Shown: in pieces, positions 42,373 to 59,630 of the stretch
Numbering within the stretch: position 1 is the stretch's first letter
Layout: each line of letters starts with the position of its first letter
Assembly (NCBI GenBank): GCA_029834535.1
Contig: JAQMWT010000198.1
Span: 1-64,000 of the forward strand
From: Chrysophaeum taylorii
Lineage: Eukaryota > Sar > Pelagophyceae > Pelagomonadales > Pelagomonadaceae
Direction: 5' to 3'
Length of the DNA stretch: 64,000 nt
Program-made: the position numbers and the translations under genes
The notes under the pieces: generated by a model
Databases searched by the model: none
What the model saw: the letters and a program-made list of their open reading frames with translations, nothing else
What the model was told of the DNA's origin: nothing

Positions 42373-42400
42373 TCACCTGCTGTGCAGCCACCGCGGAGCA

Positions 42401-42435
<35 letters not shown>

Positions 42436-44799
42436 AGCGCGAGACGTCGTCGCGGATAGCAGGGACGACGGCTGACCATCATCATCATCATCATCATCAT
42501 CGAGATCTTCGTCGTCGTCGTCGTCGTCGAAAAGAGGATCATCACGTGCGAAGGAGTCGGGCTTGAGGGTCGAACCGAAGGCCGCGAGGACGGCGTTTGC
42601 CTTGAGCTTGAGCTCGGCCCACTCGCTGGGGATATCCGAGAGCGCGGTGAGCGCGCCGCCGGCACCGACTCTGACGGTCCACGAGTCGTGATGATCTGAG
42701 GCGTGCGTGAAGACGGCGGTGCGGATGACGACGGCGAGGTCGGCGTCGCCGGTAAGCGACAGAAAACCGAGCGCCCCAGAGTAGCAACCGCGGGGGACTC
42801 GTGCCTCGAGGTCGTGGATGATTTCGCAGGTTCGTCGTTTTGGCGCGCCGGTCATGGATCCGGGGGGGAAGGTGGCGTCGATGGCGTCGAGGGCGTCGGC
42901 GCCTTGCCGGAGACGACCCCTGACGGTCGTGACGAGCTGGTGAACAGTCGCGAAGCTCTCGACGGCGGCGAGTTTGTGGACCCTCGCGTCGTCGCAGACT
43001 CTGAGGAGGTCGTTCGTGAGGAGGTCGGCGATCATGAGATTCTCTGCGCGCGTCTTGACCGAGCGCTCGAGTATCGAAGCCTCCATCTCGTCGCGGTCGG
43101 GGTCGGCGCTGCGGGGTGCCGTGCCCTTGATGGGTTTTGCCTCGACGTCGCGGCCCGAGACGCGGAGAAATCTTTCCGGCGAGGAGCTGGCGACGGAAAC
43201 GTCCGCGAGGTCGAGAAACGCCGCGTGCGGCGCTCGGTTCGCGCGACGGAGCCGTTCGTACCACTCGAGGGGCGCGCCCCCAACCGTCGCCTGGAACGAT
43301 GTCGTCAGGCAAACCTCGTAGGTGTCGCCGGCAGCGATGCGGTCGAGGGCCAGGCGCGCGCGCCGGCCGTACTCTGTTCTGTCGATCGCGCACTCGAACT
43401 CGACCGCGCTCGTCTTCTCTGGCGGTTTCCACAGCGTCCCGCCGCCGGAAATGCGCGGCTCGAAGCTTGGTACCTCGCCGTCCGCGACGAGCTCGAGCGC
43501 CCAGGCGCGCCGCAGCCGGTGGTGGAAGACGACCGCGCGATCGACGAACGCGAGCGCCGAGTCGGGCGTCGAGTCGGGCGTCGAGTCGTCGTCGTCGTCA
43601 CCACTACCGGGCGTGTAGTCGCGCGTCTCGCGACGGAGTTCGTAACCCAGGTAACCGACGAAGCCGAGCTGGAAGTCGAAGGGGAGCGGGAGTGGCCCGT
43701 TGGCGGGCCTGCGAGCCTCGAGCTCCCGCCGGAGGGCGTCGAGGAGCCGTCCCTCGACAACTTTTCTTTGGCCGTCGGGCCGCTCGAACGTCGAGAGGCC
43801 CCTCTTGTGGGTCACCGCGAAGCCGTGGGGGCCAGTGCCGCCCACGACGCTCACGGGCGCCGCCGTCGAGCCGTCGCCGTCGAGCCAAACGCTCCGCCGC
43901 GACTGGTTGTAGAAGATATCCCTGTACGCGGTCGCGGCGAGCTCCCGGCCGTCGACGTCAGGTGCCCAAGCGGCGACTTGGGTCGCGACGACGCGCCACG
44001 AGGTACGGGGCTTTGGCGCCGCCGCCGCCGCCGCCGCCGCCGCTGTGAGAACCACCGGCATCCCGACCGACCGGGCGCAGCAGTACCGCAGGAAATTCGT
44101 GGCGATGAGGTCGCCGTGGCGCGTCGCGACCGACTCTGGATGGAACTGGACGCCAAAACGAGGAAGACCAACGTGCTCGAGCGCGAGGACGTCGCCCGCC
44201 TTGGAGCGCGCCACGACGCGCAACGGCGAGGCCCAGAGTCGCCGGTCGTCGAGGACCGTGAGCGAGTGGTATCTAGTTGCCCCAAAGCCCTGCGGCAGGC
44301 CGCGAAAGAGCCGAGCTTCCGGGTCGAAGAACACGCCGTCGACGACGCCGTGCCGTGGGACGCCGAGGGGCGCAACGCACGCGCCCTCCGACCACGCGAG
44401 ACCCTGGTGCCCCAGGCACACCCCCAGCACCGGCAAGCTATGCGGCGCGTTCCGAAGGGCGAGCCCGGCTGCCGTCTCGGCAAAATCCAGCGCAGAGCCC
44501 GGATGTCCCGGCCCGGGAGACAGCACGAGCCCGTCCCACTCGCCGAGGAACTCCGAGCTTACCTCGGACCGCAGGGTTGCCGTCAGGGCCTCGTCGTCGT
44601 GACCGATTACCGTCGGCCAGTGGTCGCGCAGGCTATCCCTAGGCGACCCGTGCACGCGACGCGACGCGCTCGCGACCCACCGCGCCACATTCTGCGTGTA
44701 CGAGTCGTGGCAGTCGATCAACAGAATTCTGGGCCGAGGTGTCGCGGAGTAAAGGCTCAGTGCGGCCACGCGAGCCGCGTGGACCCACAGCGCAACCAT
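42373..44799 (-). CDS. Bifunctional aminodeoxychorismate synthase (PabA-PabB fusion)
   Basis: 808 aa, single exon. Residues about 25-245 are a class I glutamine amidotransferase: LLIDCHDSYTQNV, LVLSPGPGHP, GVCLGHQGLA with nucleophile Cys, and VQFHPESVATRHG with His/Glu. Residues about 275-740 are the chorismate-binding subunit: TYEVCLTTSF, FLDLADVSVASSSPERFLRV, PIKGTAPRSAD (Lys marks ADC synthase rather than anthranilate synthase), ENLMIADLLTNDL, VHQLVTTVRGRL, and PPGSMTGAPKRRTCEII. It makes 4-amino-4-deoxychorismate for p-aminobenzoate and folate. The tail from about 755 is poly-Asp then poly-Ser, from trinucleotide runs at 42478-42500 and 42403-42432. N-terminal 20 residues may be a transit peptide. 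Confidence 0.93.
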
Positions 44800-53639: not shown

Positions 53640-55424
53640 ATGTGGCGGGTGAAGCGCGGGGTGCTGTCGGAGTCGACAATCGACGCTCTGCGGGCGGAGG
53701 CCGAGGCGCTCGCGGCGCTCGAGGCCCCGTCGTTCGAGAACGGGTGTGTCCTCGAGCCGGTGCGGGACGACGTGCGCGGCGAGGCGTGGCGCGCCGACGA
53801 GGTCGCGTACGGTTTAGCGCGCAAGGTCGCGCCGTCGGCTGCGGTGCGCGAGGCGCTGTTCGAGACGCTCGCGCGGGTCGCGAGCGAGTTCTTTGGCGAG
53901 GCGGTGGTCCTCTTTAACGAGCATTACGTCGTCAAGCCGGCGAACTCCGAGGTGGAGTTCGGTTGGCATCGCGACGGCGACCTGCAGCTCGCGAGCACTT
54001 ACTGTCGGGACGAGTACGTCTCGTGTTGGTGCGCACTCGACCCGGCAACTCCCGAGAACGGGTGCCTCGTAGTTCGCGACGGAGCGCTACCGTGCGCCGC
54101 GGGCGACGTCGTGGTGCTCTCGTCGCGATGCGAGCACCGGTCGGGCCCGAACGAGACGCCCGGTCCGCGACGAGCGTTCTACGCGCAGTACGCGTCGCGA
54201 CCGATCGCGACGCCGAGCGGCGTGCTGCGCCTTGCCATTCCGTGTCGAGGCGGTTTGACCTTGGCCGACGCCGCGGTCTGCGACCTAGAACGCGTCGACC
54301 CCGCCTTGGCGACGTTCGCGAGACTCGCGAGAGATCTCGAGACCGACCGCGACGCGTGGCGAGCCGTGCTCGATGGCTGCTGGGCCGCGCTCCACGACCC
54401 CGATCGCCACTGGACCGCGGCGCCGCGCGAGTTTCGCCGCGCCTATGCGGTCGCCTCGATCTATTACGCCGAGACCCTCGACGACTCGGAGGAAGCTCGG
54501 ATCCGCTCGCTCGATCTCGGCCTGATGATGGACGACGGTTCGACCCGAGCCGCGCTCCTCGAGCGCGTCGCAGAGCTGGAACGACAAAGACCACCCCCGC
54601 CACCGCGCCCCCTCTTTGCTGCGGCGGATAAAGGATCGTCTCCGAGGCCGCTAACGGGAACCGTCGACCTCCCGACCGTCGAGAAACCGTCGGTCGAAAC
54701 CTTCCGGGTCTCCCATTTCGAGCCTCGGAAACCCTGCCGCATCCTCGAGGCCATGCCGTGGCCCGCGCTCCGCAAGTGGCGCGATCTCGACTACCTTCGT
54801 CGCGTGGCCGGCCACCGCGTCGTCCCGATCGAGATCGGCGACCATTACCTCGCCGACGACTGGACGGAGAAAGTGATGACGCTCTCTGAGTTTGTGGAGA
54901 CTCGCATTCTCGGCCAGGAGAAGATCGGCTACCTCGCGCAGCACGCGCTCTTCGATCAAGTCCCCGCGCTCCGAGCCGACGTAGCGCTCCCGGACTACTG
55001 CGCCCTCGGAGACGGGGTCGAGCCCAGGCTCAACGCGTGGTTCGGCCCGCCCGGCACCGTCTCCCCGCTCCATCACGATCGCTACCACAACCTTCTCTGC
55101 CAGGTCCTCGGCGTCAAGTACGTCCGCCTCTACGCCCCCCGCCTCGACCAACACCTTTACCCCCGCGACCCCGCGAGCCTCCACGCCGTCTCCAGCCAGA
55201 TCGTCGACATTGACCGCGTCGACCAAGTCAAGTTCCCGCGCTTCAAAGACGCGCCCTACTCCGATTGCCGCCTCGCGCCCGGCGAGATCCTTTACATACC
55301 CCCGCACACCTGGCACTACATCGAGGCTTCCGAAACCAGCTTTTCGGTCGGTCGGTCACTCATTCATTCCCTCTCTCTCTTTTTATGTCCTGTCTCCTCG
55401 CAGGTCTCGATCTGGTGGTTGTAG
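53640..55424 (+). CDS. PhyH-JmjC double 2-oxoglutarate dioxygenase fusion
   Basis: Exon 1 53640-55346, intron 55347-55403 (57 nt, GTCGGT..CGCAG), exon 2 55404-55424; 575 aa. The N-terminal half is phytanoyl-CoA dioxygenase-like: FNEHYVVKPANSE, FGWHRDGD with iron ligands H110/D112, CALDPATPENGCLVV, and SSRCEHRSG with distal His about 166. The C-terminal half is JmjC of the KDM8/JMJD5 type: VVPIEIGDHYLADDW, GTVSPLHHDRYHNLLCQVLG with H478/D480, PPHTWHYIEA with H559. The intron gives the ending SFSVSIWWL, like the KDM8 C-terminus SFSVSFWW. Both active sites look intact. Role: probably protein hydroxylation or demethylation plus a second oxidation; substrates unknown. Confidence 0.88.
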   Translation: MWRVKRGVLSESTIDALRAEAEALAALEAPSFENGCVLEPVRDDVRGEAWRADEVAYGLARKVAPSAAVREALFETLARVASEFFGEAVVLFNEHYVVKPANSEVEFGWHRDGDLQLASTYCRDEYVSCWCALDPATPENGCLVVRDGALPCAAGDVVVLSSRCEHRSGPNETPGPRRAFYAQYASRPIATPSGVLRLAIPCRGGLTLADAAVCDLERVDPALATFARLARDLETDRDAWRAVLDGCWAALHDPDRHWTAAPREFRRAYAVASIYYAETLDDSEEARIRSLDLGLMMDDGSTRAALLERVAELERQRPPPPPRPLFAAADKGSSPRPLTGTVDLPTVEKPSVETFRVSHFEPRKPCRILEAMPWPALRKWRDLDYLRRVAGHRVVPIEIGDHYLADDWTEKVMTLSEFVETRILGQEKIGYLAQHALFDQVPALRADVALPDYCALGDGVEPRLNAWFGPPGTVSPLHHDRYHNLLCQVLGVKYVRLYAPRLDQHLYPRDPASLHAVSSQIVDIDRVDQVKFPRFKDAPYSDCRLAPGEILYIPPHTWHYIEASETSFSVGRSLIHSLSLFLCPVSSQVSIWWL

Positions 55425-55712
55425 AATATATATGCATGTGGTGTGATGCGATCTTTTTTCAAGATGTACGATGTGCGATGCGCGATGCACGATGCACCCC
55501 CCTTCTGCACCTTGTACTTACCCTTCGAGTCTACTCTTTAAAAAACCCTTCGTGCGTCTCCTCCCTCACCCCCCCACCAATCAACAACCGTCAATCTTTA
55601 CAAACCCTTCGTGTCTACTTTCCAAGCGGCCGATGGTGTCGTTCTTTCCAAATGAAACGTCAATCCGAATAAATAAATAAATAAATAATGCGACGTGACG
55701 GAGCGTGAACGC
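55425..55712. other. Intergenic region, AATA run before start codon
   Basis: Contains GATGCGC/GATGCAC 7-mer repeats (about 55463-55495), two AAACCCTTCGTG copies (55546 and 55599), and (AATA)n directly upstream of the next gene. A seven-codon upstream ORF starts at ATG 55688 and overlaps the main start region. Confidence 0.55.
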
Positions 55713-58700
55713 ATGAGTGCGAGCGTGGTGCCGCCGCCACCGCCGCCGCCGAAAATCGGCCCGCCGCCGGCTCGTCCGCCGCCTGGCCGGCCACCGCCTA
55801 GTATGTCGTCGCCCTTTGAAGGTGCGAACGACGTTTTTGCTAAAAACACAGGCGCATACCCTCGTGCGATCGGAGCCCCCCCTCCAGGTTGAGTTGGAGT
55901 CTTTCGTTCGCGCAGCGTCTCAGCAGGCCCTCCGCCGCCTCGCTCCGCGCAGCGCATCACGTCGGGCGCTTTCACGCTCAACGGCCCGGGCACCCCTCCT
56001 CCAGGTTGACGTCGCATCTGTCTGCTGCACAATTATCATATTCAACACAGGACCACCGCCTGGACCACCTCCTGCGCCACGAGGCCCGCGGCCGCCGCCG
56101 CCGAGTACGTTGCGTACCGCGCGCCTTTTTGATGCGCGCCGTATCGCAGCCCATCGTCCGCCATCGTCGCGAGGTTGGCACGGTCGGTCGCTGCGCGTCT
56201 CAAAGATCGCGCAGGCTCATCCCCAGCATTCGGAGGCCCGCCGCCTCGACATTTTTCAGGGCCCGTTCCACCGCCGCCACCCCCGCCATCCATCGGAATC
56301 CCGCCACCGCGACGGGCTCCGGGAGCAGCAGGTGAGCGTCCTCTCTCTCTCCCTCCCTCCCTCCCTCGCGCGAAGCATCAAACCAGAACCACAGGCACTT
56401 TCGCGCCCATACCAGACCTGAGTTCGACGGCCGTCGGTAGCCCGCGAGCTTTAGGATATGGTGCGACTCGCGTGCCGCCGCCGCCATCGTTGCCACAACC
56501 ACCACCACCTCTCGGGACTCCGCCGCCTCGACGAGCACTAGGATCGGACGGAACTGACTTTTCAACGGGGCGGCCGCTAACTACTTCGCCTCCACCGGCT
56601 TTCGGAGACCAGCCTCCGCGACAAGTGCCCGGAGGTCAGAGGAAGTCGAGTATATCTCGCGAGGAACGCGCCATTTAAGCAGGCGTACTCGTGCTACCGC
56701 CGCCAACAAATCTACCTCCACCTCCGACCGGAAGCCAGTCAGGATCGGACAATGCTAGCATGCCGCCACCTCCGTCGACACCGCCGCCTGCCTTGGAAAA
56801 CCCGCACCTTGAACATAGACAAGGAGGTCCGTCAGCCGCCGTCGAGTGTCTATTCTCTCACGCGCTGCGAACGCAGGCGCGCCACCGCCGCCACCTCTCT
56901 CAGCTTTTGGAAGGCCGCGAGGGTCGGAAAGAGATTCTGGCGCGCCTCCGCCGACACCGCAACTGGCCATTGGAAGCCCGCCCCTTCGAGGAATAACTGG
57001 AGGTCAGCGAGCCGTGGAGTCCCAAGCATATCATCAGGCACTGCGCGCGGGCGCGCCACCACCGCCACCTCTCTTAGCTTTTGGAAGTCCGCAAGGGTCG
57101 GATGATTCAGGCGCGCCTCCTCCGACACTGAAACTGGCCGTTGAAAGCCCGCCCCTTGAACAAATACCTCGAGATCAACAGGCCGTCGAGTCCCGAGCGC
57201 GTCGTCGTCGTCGTCAAGCACTGCGCGCGGGCGCGCCGCCGCCACCACCTGCACTGGCTGTTGGAAGTCCGCAAGGTTCGGACGATTCTGGCGTGCCACC
57301 GCCTCCGTCGACGCCGCCACCGGCCGTTAGAAGCCTTTCCCTTGGAAAACCACCTGGAGGTCCGCGCGCCGTCCACTGTCACGCGAACGCGCGAACGCAG
57401 GCATGCCTCCGCCGCCGCCACCTCCGTCGGCTGGCGAAGGCCCACCTCACGAAACGCTCGAGGAAGGTCAGTGGTGGCCAACTGTTGTTGTTGTTGTTGT
57501 CGTTGTTGTGCCACACTGAATAAACACAGGCGTGCCACCGCTGCCAAGCACTCAACCTCCACCTTCTGCTGAAAGAAGCCCGCCTCTCCGTGGCTTGGCG
57601 ACGCAACCGCCGCAGCAGTCTAGCCCGCCTCCTCGGCACCAACAACAAATAAGTGCGCTGTCAAGTGTCCCCGATAAAGTAACGAGCCACAACAACACGC
57701 AGGCGTTCCTCCGCGTCCGCTGCCACCCTCACAGGCTGTCGAAGACCCGCCTCCTCGGCTCGCACTCGAAGGACCACCTACCCGTTTGACGGCTGGCATC
57801 GCGGACGACCCGCGCAGCAGCAGCGGCTTCAGCACCAGCACCCCTAGTTCCCCGTCCGCAGAAAGATTGGCGCTCGGCGGGAACAAGAACGAGGTCGTGG
57901 CGACGGCCATCCTGGAGAATGACGACGACGACGACGACGACTACGAGGAGTACGGAGGACCTTTTTTAGAAGCCGCGAGAGAAGGTCGCGGCGAGAAAAA
58001 CAACAAGGCGTTGCGGAGCGAGGAGCTGACGTTGGACGACGAGACGCATGTGGTGACTACTCCGTCGTCGCGGCGGGTGAGCACATTATCCGACGCGGAA
58101 GAGCCGTCGAGCAGCGCGTTGGCGGATTCGGGAACGAGCGCGCTGGACGAGGCACACGAGGCGCGAGTGCGATGCGTCGCCGAGACGGTACGGATGCGGC
58201 TGGCCGAAGTCGAGCAGCGCACGGTCGAATCGGCGGCGCGGTCGGCGAGCCTGGGGGCCATCCTCCGGGCGTGCTTGTTCGCGCACGGGCGGCAAATCGT
58301 GGGGGACGGTAAGGGCACGCTCGCGAGCGACTGGGCTCGCGACGAGGTGATGGGTCGCGCATTCCGGCAGTACGCCGACGACGGCGGGCGCATCGGACTC
58401 GCCGAGTGGCTGGATTTCGTGGGCGACGCGCGGTGCTGCGGCGGGGACGTGGCGACGAAGGTATTCCGCGTCGTCGCGCTCGAGCGCGCGGCCGGGGCGT
58501 GCGACGACGGGTCGGTGTGCGAGGACGACGCGCGGCGCGAGGCGACGGAGGCCCTTGTCGCGTCGGGCGTGCACGACGTCCAGCTGGACTTCTCGGGATT
58601 CTACGGATTGCTGCGCGAGCTGGTGGAGCGTCGCCGCGACACGTTCGAGGCGTTCGCGCACGCGTACGTCGTGCCCGTCGTCGCGTGCGGGCGGGGCGCG

Positions 58701-59630
58701 GCGCGCGCGAGCCCAAGCCGGCTCGTGAACGCAAGCGACGCTCCGCGCGTCGCCCGTCTCGCGCGCGACTTCCTGCCAAACCTGTGGCGGCTCTTCACGC
58801 TGTACGCGCAGGACGAGCGCGGCCACACGGCGCCCGCGTGCCGCGGTGATTTTCCCCACCTCGCGCAGGCTGCCGAGCACGCGATCGCGGGGACAGAACT
58901 CGCCGATTTCGAGCCGCTCTCGGCCGACTTTGCGTCGATGGCCGCGCGCATCCAGGCGCGATATCCCGACAAGCGCCTCGCGCTCTCGGTCTCCGAGGAC
59001 CGCTTCGCGCGCGTTTGCGAGCACCTCGCGCTCGCCCCCGACGTCGCGCCGCTCGCGCGCGTGCGTCTCGCGTTCCGCGTCGCGCGCCGCCCGAGGGTCG
59101 AGGCCGCGCGACCCAAGGCGCCGACGCCCAAGCGAGCGCCGCGCGTCTCTCGCGCGACGCGACCGACCGTCGCCCACAAGCGGCGCGTCCTCGCGGTTGC
59201 CGCGCACACCTCGCTCCTCCACTCGTCGCCAACTCGTTTCTCGCCCAAGCGCTCCTCGCCCGTCCGACTCTCCTCTCCCAACGACGACGACGCCGCCTCC
59301 TCCTCCTCGTGCTGCCCCGGGCTCTCGTTCTGCGAGTTCGTCGAGGTAGGGGCTTCGCAGCATGGCGCGATGATTGCTTTTTGTTTCGCGCAGGCCCTCG
59401 CCGACGTCGCGGACGCGGGACTCTCGGAGCGCAAGGTCCTCGCCAAGAAGTATCCGACGACCTACGCGCGCGTGGCCGCGCTTCTGGTAATAATAAGAGA
59501 GAAGACAAGAAGAACGCAATCATCATCGTCTTTTTCGCAGGCCGTATGGGGCGCTGCCGACGCTCGTAAACTGGACGACCTCGCCGCGTGCATTGCGTCC
59601 CACCTCTCGGAGCGGCGGCGGCGGCGGTGA
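55713..59630 (+). CDS. Proline-rich 14-exon protein with mini-exon array
   Basis: Exons: 55713-55800, 55852-55887, 55927-56004, 56051-56104, 56150-56173, 56215-56331, 56395-56634, 56683-56826, 56877-57359, 57401-57466, 57530-57652, 57703-59345, 59394-59486, 59541-59630; 1092 aa. The first 11 introns (39-63 nt) are all phase 1 and mostly split a Gly or Ser codon after PPP (CCA G|gt..cag|GC). The N-terminal half (about 1-490) is polyproline of formin/WASP style (VVPPPPPPPKIG, GGPPPRHFSGPVPPPPPPPS). The C-terminal half has a helical domain with an EF-hand-like segment (DEVMGRAFRQYADDGGRIGL) and Ser/Arg-rich linkers. No FH2 or WH2 motif seen. Probable profilin/SH3-binding cytoskeletal scaffold. 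The small exons 4-5 are the least certain. Confidence 0.72.
57003..57230 (+). other. Two exonised former introns inside exon 9
   Basis: 57003-57050 (48 nt) begins GTCAGCGAGC like a donor but ends GCGCGCGG instead of CGCAG. 57174-57230 (57 nt) begins ATCAAC, with the donor GT lost, and ends GCGCGCGG. Both sit exactly where introns sit in sister repeats, are multiples of three and remain open, adding QRAVESQAYHQALRA and QQAVESRARRRRRQALRA to the protein. Confidence 0.6.

Follow-up and report, generated by a model that had tools for sequence, protein, structure and literature searches.

A predicted gene at 55713..59630 on the plus strand of an algal contig encodes a polyproline N-terminal tail that is interrupted by eleven very short introns, all of them in phase 1. 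The gene lies in a window of 64,000 nt, positions 1-64000 of contig C198 (100,514 nt), from an assembly of 70.8 Mb in 697 contigs. The reading that we consider likely is that this is one gene, the tail of which was built partly by duplication of coding sequence together with an intron, that the common phase comes mostly from codon context, and that two intron-like stretches, termed here relics 1 and 2, are intron losses. The structure is unusual; it appears well supported at the sequence level and would be explained mostly by codon context and local duplication.

Structure of the polyproline array

The initial annotation had proposed eleven consecutive phase-1 introns of 39-63 nt between 55713 and 57702. 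Rebuilding the model by hand, from the ATG at 55713 to the last array acceptor at 57702, gave identical coordinates, with 12 exons and eleven GT-CAG introns, all in phase 1. The introns, all on the plus strand, are located at 55801..55851 (intron 1, 51 nt), 55888..55926 (intron 2, 39 nt, with a second frame-keeping CAG 3 nt upstream), 56005..56050 (intron 3, 46 nt), 56105..56149 (intron 4, 45 nt), 56174..56214 (intron 5, 41 nt, directly after a 24-nt exon), 56332..56394 (intron 6, 63 nt), 56635..56682 (intron 7, 48 nt), 56827..56876 (intron 8, 50 nt), 57360..57400 (intron 9, 41 nt, T-poor), 57467..57529 (intron 10, 63 nt, with a GTT-repeat tract) and 57653..57702 (intron 11, 50 nt, which carries the last acceptor of the array). 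Internal exons 2-11 measure 36, 78, 54, 24, 117, 240, 144, 483, 66 and 123 nt, and all ten are multiples of 3.

Two descriptive details of the annotation held in part. Exons as short as 24-36 nt do occur, but only two of the ten internal exons are in that range and five are 117-483 nt long. The common border, given as PPP-G|gt..cag|GC, is correct on its acceptor side, with cag at 11/11 junctions and |GC at 9/11, but was overstated on the donor side: a G precedes gt at 8/11 junctions, PPP precedes 4/11 and the full PPP-G is found at 2/11.

In exons 2-6 and 10 all three frames are open, but over the full set of 12 exons only the proline frame lacks stops. Its proline fraction is 0.24-0.71 across exons 1-11, and it runs on into an open exon of 1,643 nt. 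A stop-free intron that restores the frame and ends in CAG was found in 11/11 gaps, against 2.5/11 expected from dinucleotide shuffles (P about 6e-9); allowing any AG acceptor, the same test gave 5.2 expected and P about 4e-5. Both P values are optimistic, since the gap limits were taken from the model under test. Across the eleven gaps there are 21 GT-AG pairs, 30-90 nt long, that restore the frame and contain no stop, and all are in phase 1.

The introns have a higher T content than the exons, 0.233 compared with 0.148, and 9/11, all except introns 9 and 11, exceed their own flanks. Introns 1, 4 and 6 are stop-free multiples of 3, so that the frame is kept if they are retained. Read-through of introns 2, 3, 7 and 10 meets stops, and the unspliced mRNA would yield a peptide of 59 residues. 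The array carries 7.6 introns per kb of coding sequence, compared with 1.1 per kb in the 24 other predicted genes of the window, a difference of about 7-fold. All eleven introns would be spliced out, probably by intron definition.

Tandem repeat and intron relics

A tandem repeat with a unit of 180 bp, 2.4 copies and 79% matches occupies 56872..57303 (+), in exon 9 and its intron-derived stretches. Two intron-homologous stretches lie within this region. Relic 1 (57003..57050, +, 48 nt) keeps its donor (G|gtcagc), while the acceptor AG is changed to GG (gcgcgg); relic 2 (57174..57230, +, 57 nt) has lost both sites, with GT changed to AT at the donor and AG to GG at the acceptor. Both are open and in frame. 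Intron 8, relic 1, relic 2 and intron 9 occupy the matching place in successive repeat units, and homology was supported by z scores of 4.8 for intron 8 and relic 1, 4.2 for intron 8 and relic 2, 6.7 for the two relics and 6.9 for introns 8 and 9. Introns 8 and 9 are the intact homologues, the latter downstream of the relics.

The T content of the relics, 0.152, is exon-like. The chance that a random stretch of intron composition is open was calculated to be 58% for 48 nt and 52% for 57 nt, before the one-in-three chance for length is applied. Splicing of relic 1 at its internal CAG would remove 35 nt and break the frame. Relics 1 and 2 are probably de-intronised introns next to intact copies, and both would be retained in the mRNA. 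The simplest order of events would be a shared loss of the acceptor and a later loss of the donor. The N-terminal half was probably built at least partly by tandem duplication of units of coding sequence plus intron, and the array would also tolerate the loss of splice sites where the stretch is open and in frame, the relics being two such losses.

Conversion of intron to exon is rare in the literature consulted, and the published cases counsel care. In the available text on Cryptococcus, 0 events of de-intronization are given among 28,256 introns (PMC2740785). For fission yeast, the available text describes one transcript-supported de-intronization, caused by the branch site, and states that most intron-to-exon candidates were disproved by transcripts (PMC3629103). 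The same caution would apply to relics 1 and 2, which are candidates of this kind.

Origin of the common phase

Phase 1 was found in 11/11 array introns and in 13/37 other introns predicted by the gene finder (Fisher 2e-4). The comparison set consists of all Viterbi introns in the window outside the array gene, with phases 0/1/2 of 13/13/11; it is unfiltered and surely includes some false introns. A set of 69 introns with a posterior of at least 0.9 in a wider sample (phases 0/1/2: 10/23/36), 8 of them in the window, was left unused; 38 of the 65 listed (<150 nt) come from one contig-start repeat family.

The common phase was read in the initial annotation as a sign of cassette design. This was not supported, since AG|G falls mostly in phase 1 in this Pro/Gly context anyway: 15 of the 20 non-junction AG|G sites in the spliced array are in phase 1. 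In the C-terminal exon, 19/22 AG|G sites are in phase 0 and 2/22 in phase 1, and the two introns predicted beyond that exon are likewise in phase 0. Where a codon with A as its last base precedes a glycine codon (NNA-GGN), the AG|G cut falls after the first base of the glycine codon, which is phase 1. Array junctions sit at AG|G in 8/11 cases, all in phase 1, and eight in a row have a probability of 0.10 if the chance of phase 1 is 0.75. NNA-GGN codon pairs would thus set AG|G in phase 1 and mostly fix the common phase, which would be largely what Pro/Gly codon usage gives if introns sit at AG|G, with selection for cassettes unneeded. Since the phase is shared, all internal exons are symmetric, and the array would therefore tolerate duplication and loss of units.

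This symmetry agrees with the earlier proposal that any exon could be skipped or duplicated with the frame unbroken, insofar as 10/10 internal exons are symmetric and an in-frame duplication is present in the 180-bp repeat.

Origin of the introns

The view of the exons as repeated modules was not borne out. Outside the 180-bp repeat, 5/66 exon pairs reached p<=0.05, with 3.3 expected, which is the level of chance (exon 9 was entered by its first unit only). Introns 1-6 have only words of 7-9 nt in common with one another and with the rest. These two results favor an alternative in which the introns were gained singly at AG|G proto-splice sites in a Pro/Gly stretch, for instance by small tandem duplications, and were not copied together with exons. 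It also fits the AG|G found at 8/11 junctions, and there is a precedent in fission yeast, where the available text describes two introns gained within tandem repeats at AGGC proto-splice sites (PMC3629103); these two introns are in phase 0. Units 8-9, on the other hand, are more simply read as copied together with their intron. Single gain is accordingly regarded as a serious alternative, though a less probable one than partial building of the tail by joint duplication of coding sequence and intron.

Relatives of the array were searched for in the whole assembly. At the sensitivity of the searches used, no second copy of the gene was found in the 70.8 Mb, and a whole-genome DNA search with the array (simple repeats skipped) returned only the array itself. 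Compared with 345 kb of the 70.8 Mb, the array introns had no matches other than simple repeats and a single 14-nt word (E 0.03). The pattern PPPG|gt..cag|G occurs 3 times in the assembly, two of them in this array, against 12 for the reversed control. Nor was there enrichment of PPG|gt..cag|GC..PP, with 13 genome matches (two pairs overlap; one match lies in the array) against 27 in the reversed control, and the strictest array pattern gave 0 genome matches and 1 in the control.

These searches bear on a burst of introners, that is, intron-generating transposons, as the source of the array. Such elements have been reported in Aureococcus, Florenciella and others, according to the available text (PMC9860276), and a density about 7 times that of the surroundings would be in keeping with a burst. 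Yet shared sequence among the introns is confined to units 8-9, the array finds only itself in the whole genome, and its PPPG|gt..cag|G pattern is rarer there than in the reversed control. An introner origin was disfavored, as no intron family sharing sequence across genes was found in the genome search with the array or in the 345 kb compared with its introns, and it is considered very improbable.

Points against the gene model

Several observations weigh against the reading of a single gene with a partly duplicated, codon-context-phased tail. The structure of the array gene is, to begin with, known from the DNA sequence of one assembly only. Chance pairs of splice sites are not rare in this composition: exon 9 holds 20 frame-keeping GT-AG pairs of 30-140 nt, with phases 1/2/0 of 13/5/2. 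The self-trained gene finder, run after training that excluded the array (although array introns had seeded its splice-site models), reproduced 2/11 introns exactly (56005-56050 and 57360-57400) and read the region in another frame. The starting run, seeded with array introns, gave 6/11 exactly, again in another frame. The program prefers the Ala/Arg-rich frames of its training genes, and these frames carry stops in several exons. As an idea of our own, the other-frame reading may stem from the coding statistics of Ala/Arg-rich genes, where CCG runs are read as GCC or CGC.

Regarding the repeat, codon positions 1, 2 and 3 differ between copies about equally often (6, 6, 5; 10, 8, 11; 11, 8, 9). 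No purifying selection was thus seen on the repeat, and a decaying region is possible. Gaps between copies in the exons are 3 and 6 nt by MAFFT, whereas with a second aligner there are also paired gaps of 1 nt. Frame-preserving duplication of units is seen for the 180-bp repeat only. The similarity of the relics to intron 9 is weaker than to the other copies, with z of 3.0 for relic 1 and 1.8 for relic 2. The direction from intron to exon rests on parsimony, with sister units of the same gene (introns 8 and 9, both intact) as the sole outgroup.

In relation to the phase, repeated units contribute to the AG|G counts, which are therefore not independent. Introns 1, 4 and 11 are in phase 1 and do not sit at AG|G, and under the codon-context account their phase is left to duplication or chance. 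Finally, the two introns at the 3' end of the gene (introns 12 and 13) are predicted from splice sites and the gene finder, not from the frame, which is open through both.

Taken furthest, some of these points suggest that the region is low-complexity DNA, either non-coding or in decay, and that the introns only appear when a proline frame is imposed on it. The absence of a codon-position signal between tandem copies, the choice of another frame by the gene finder and the chance GT-AG pairs of exon 9 would all be expected in that case. It is hard to reconcile with a proline frame that stays open over 12 exons and then through the 1,643-nt exon, and with sites that restore the frame in 11/11 gaps, and it was judged improbable. 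A single coding gene thus continues to be the preferred reading.

Predicted protein and possible alternative splicing

The N-terminus, MSASVVPPPPPPP, leads straight into polyproline, and by eye no signal peptide is evident. SPPP, counted as a check for repeats of the extensin/pherophorin type, occurs 2 times against 4.2 in shuffled sequences. The N-terminal half is Pro/Gly-rich and presumably disordered. The C-terminal coding exon (57822..59345, +) encodes an acidic stretch followed by a part that is mostly helical in a low-confidence model. For the 404-residue C-terminal stretch, Pfam gave no match with the threshold relaxed to E 10; for the C-terminal part, no PDB match was found at E 1 and no paralogue in its own genome. 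AlphaFold on the single C-terminal sequence gave a mean pLDDT of 38, and the model was unusable. Relatives of the C-terminal part in viral contigs were also considered, with 8 pattern matches, none of which was confirmed. The gene would end with two predicted phase-0 introns, intron 12 (59346..59393, +, 48 nt) and intron 13 (59487..59540, +, 54 nt), both stop-free multiples of 3, and a stop codon at 59628-59630. In the most economical reading, the protein would probably serve as a linker or binding tail that is flexible and under weak constraint.

The initial annotation had gone further and proposed a combinatorial array of polyproline ligands. Counted against shuffled sequences, PxxP (46 observed, 59.8 expected), SH3 class I (1, 4.8) and class II (1, 3.9), EVH1 (1, 2.1) and PPxY (0, 0.6) motifs are at or below expectation, which does not favor that claim; PPLP (1, 0.6) and [ST]P (14, 11.3, s.d. 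2.8) were also counted. The shuffle is crude, as proline runs were kept as units but may merge, which inflates the expected counts of proline runs. WW domains are present in the genome, with 101 matches, 98 of them over the cut-off.

A regulated combinatorial array would be one in which polyproline tails of varying length and binding capacity arise through the optional use of symmetric mini-exons or through intron retention. Several features would permit it. All ten internal exons are symmetric, and introns 1, 4 and 6 (3/11) could be retained in frame. A possible optional phase-1 intron of 108 nt (57003..57110, +) combines the donor of relic 1 with the acceptor tgattcag|GCG; it preserves the frame and would make 36 residues optional, although it is one of the 20 frame-keeping pairs in exon 9 and was picked for its array-like borders. 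Other frame-preserving sites occur in gaps 1, 2, 4, 5, 6, 7 and 11. According to the available text, symmetric micro-exons in Schistosoma can be omitted with the frame unchanged (PMC4015677), and exon skipping has been linked to short exons and short introns in a few species, including a brown alga (PMC6142364). The latter source also states, in the text available, that intron retention is believed to be prevalent in non-animals, which does not favor skipping. Moreover, 3/11 frame-neutral introns is near chance (11 x 1/3 x roughly 0.55 = about 2, a product made by hand), the symmetry is automatic from the common phase, itself largely codon context, and no ligand motif is clearly enriched. The combinatorial-ligand reading is therefore possible but unsupported, and we regard it as unlikely.

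A broader proposal would be a polyproline tail of adjustable length, kept so by the single-phase array, with units gained and lost between strains, the relics as successive stages, and variable splicing at 57003-57110 and at introns 1, 4 and 6. In that case the gene would show, in visible form, how an intron phase fixed by codon context can drive the evolution of protein length. This is given slightly more weight, though it is still rather doubtful.

Genomic context

An upstream open reading frame (ORF) of six codons (MRRDGA, stop) at 55688..55708 (+) ends 4 nt before the start codon of the polyproline gene and could damp or regulate its translation. On the same strand, 288 nt upstream of the gene, 53640-55424 encodes PhyH-like (Pfam E 9e-19) and Cupin_8/KDM8-like (5e-36) domains in one protein, which from these domains is a predicted double 2-oxoglutarate oxygenase. 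Further upstream, a single ORF at 42376-44799 (-) combines domains of three kinds, glutamine amidotransferase, Anth_synt_I_N and chorismate-binding, an arrangement like that of fused aminodeoxychorismate or anthranilate synthases.

The start of the contig (window 1-12000) differs in composition, with a G+C of 0.42-0.52 compared with about 0.6, and contains minus-strand ORFs, four of which were tested and had no Pfam match at E 0.01. Contig-start samples L004 (2586-9619), L006, L011, L012, L020 and L023 have a common set of short motifs, spaced 0.8-1.5 kb apart in L004. Judged by these motifs, the set is a repeat family, and it also misleads gene finding.

The genome is that of a photosynthetic alga, as indicated by 84 matches to the light-harvesting family, and of a fucoxanthin-type one, since, among proteins of known structure, one of the light-harvesting proteins most resembles fucoxanthin chlorophyll a/c proteins. 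Five light-harvesting matches each are found at C88:35406-41267 and C539:24843-30127, with equal or nearly equal scores and mostly about 1.2 kb apart; on the basis of match scores and spacing, these clusters are probable tandem gene arrays.

Protein-kinase domains were used to gauge introns in conserved genes. Among 127 scored domains, counted by hand, 112 had at least 240/263 positions in one frame (1/112 with an internal stop), 5 fell into two pieces within a single open frame and the other 10 were shorter. The 127 were drawn from 349 candidates, and since split domains score lower, the unscored ones would hold more of them. As far as seen, conserved genes of this genome are intron-poor.

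Comparison with known systems

If the preferred reading is true, the gene would offer a simple mechanical account of runs of same-phase introns in Pro/Gly-rich genes, in which AG|G falls in one codon phase, and a natural series within one gene, where intact, half-lost and fully lost introns lie side by side. The initial annotation knew of no described equivalent in an alga, and in agreement with this, none turned up in a narrow-term search of the open-licence literature (subscription papers are outside its range).

Tropoelastin is a repetitive Pro/Gly-rich protein encoded by short symmetric exons that share one splice phase. It is a vertebrate extracellular elastomer with a signal peptide and cross-link exons. 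The array gene resembles it in its Pro/Gly-rich repetitive product and short symmetric exons, but differs in being algal, in having introns of 39-63 nt and in that no signal peptide is evident by eye.

Like genes with introners, the array packs many introns into one algal gene, but common sequence among these introns is limited to units 8-9, and the searches returned no further copies. Compared with de-intronization, the relics are alike in having lost splice sites and being read through in frame. The published cases, as far as described in the available text, are between species, whereas here intact and relic copies, known from DNA alone, stand side by side in one gene.

The micro-exon genes (MEGs) of Schistosoma number 45 or more, most of them encode a signal peptide, and micro-exons make up to 75% of their coding sequence, according to the available text (PMC4015677). 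Unlike them, the array is one gene, with 2/10 internal exons of at most 36 nt and the largest of 240 and 483 nt; it shares with them the symmetry of its short exons, which extends to 10/10 internal exons.

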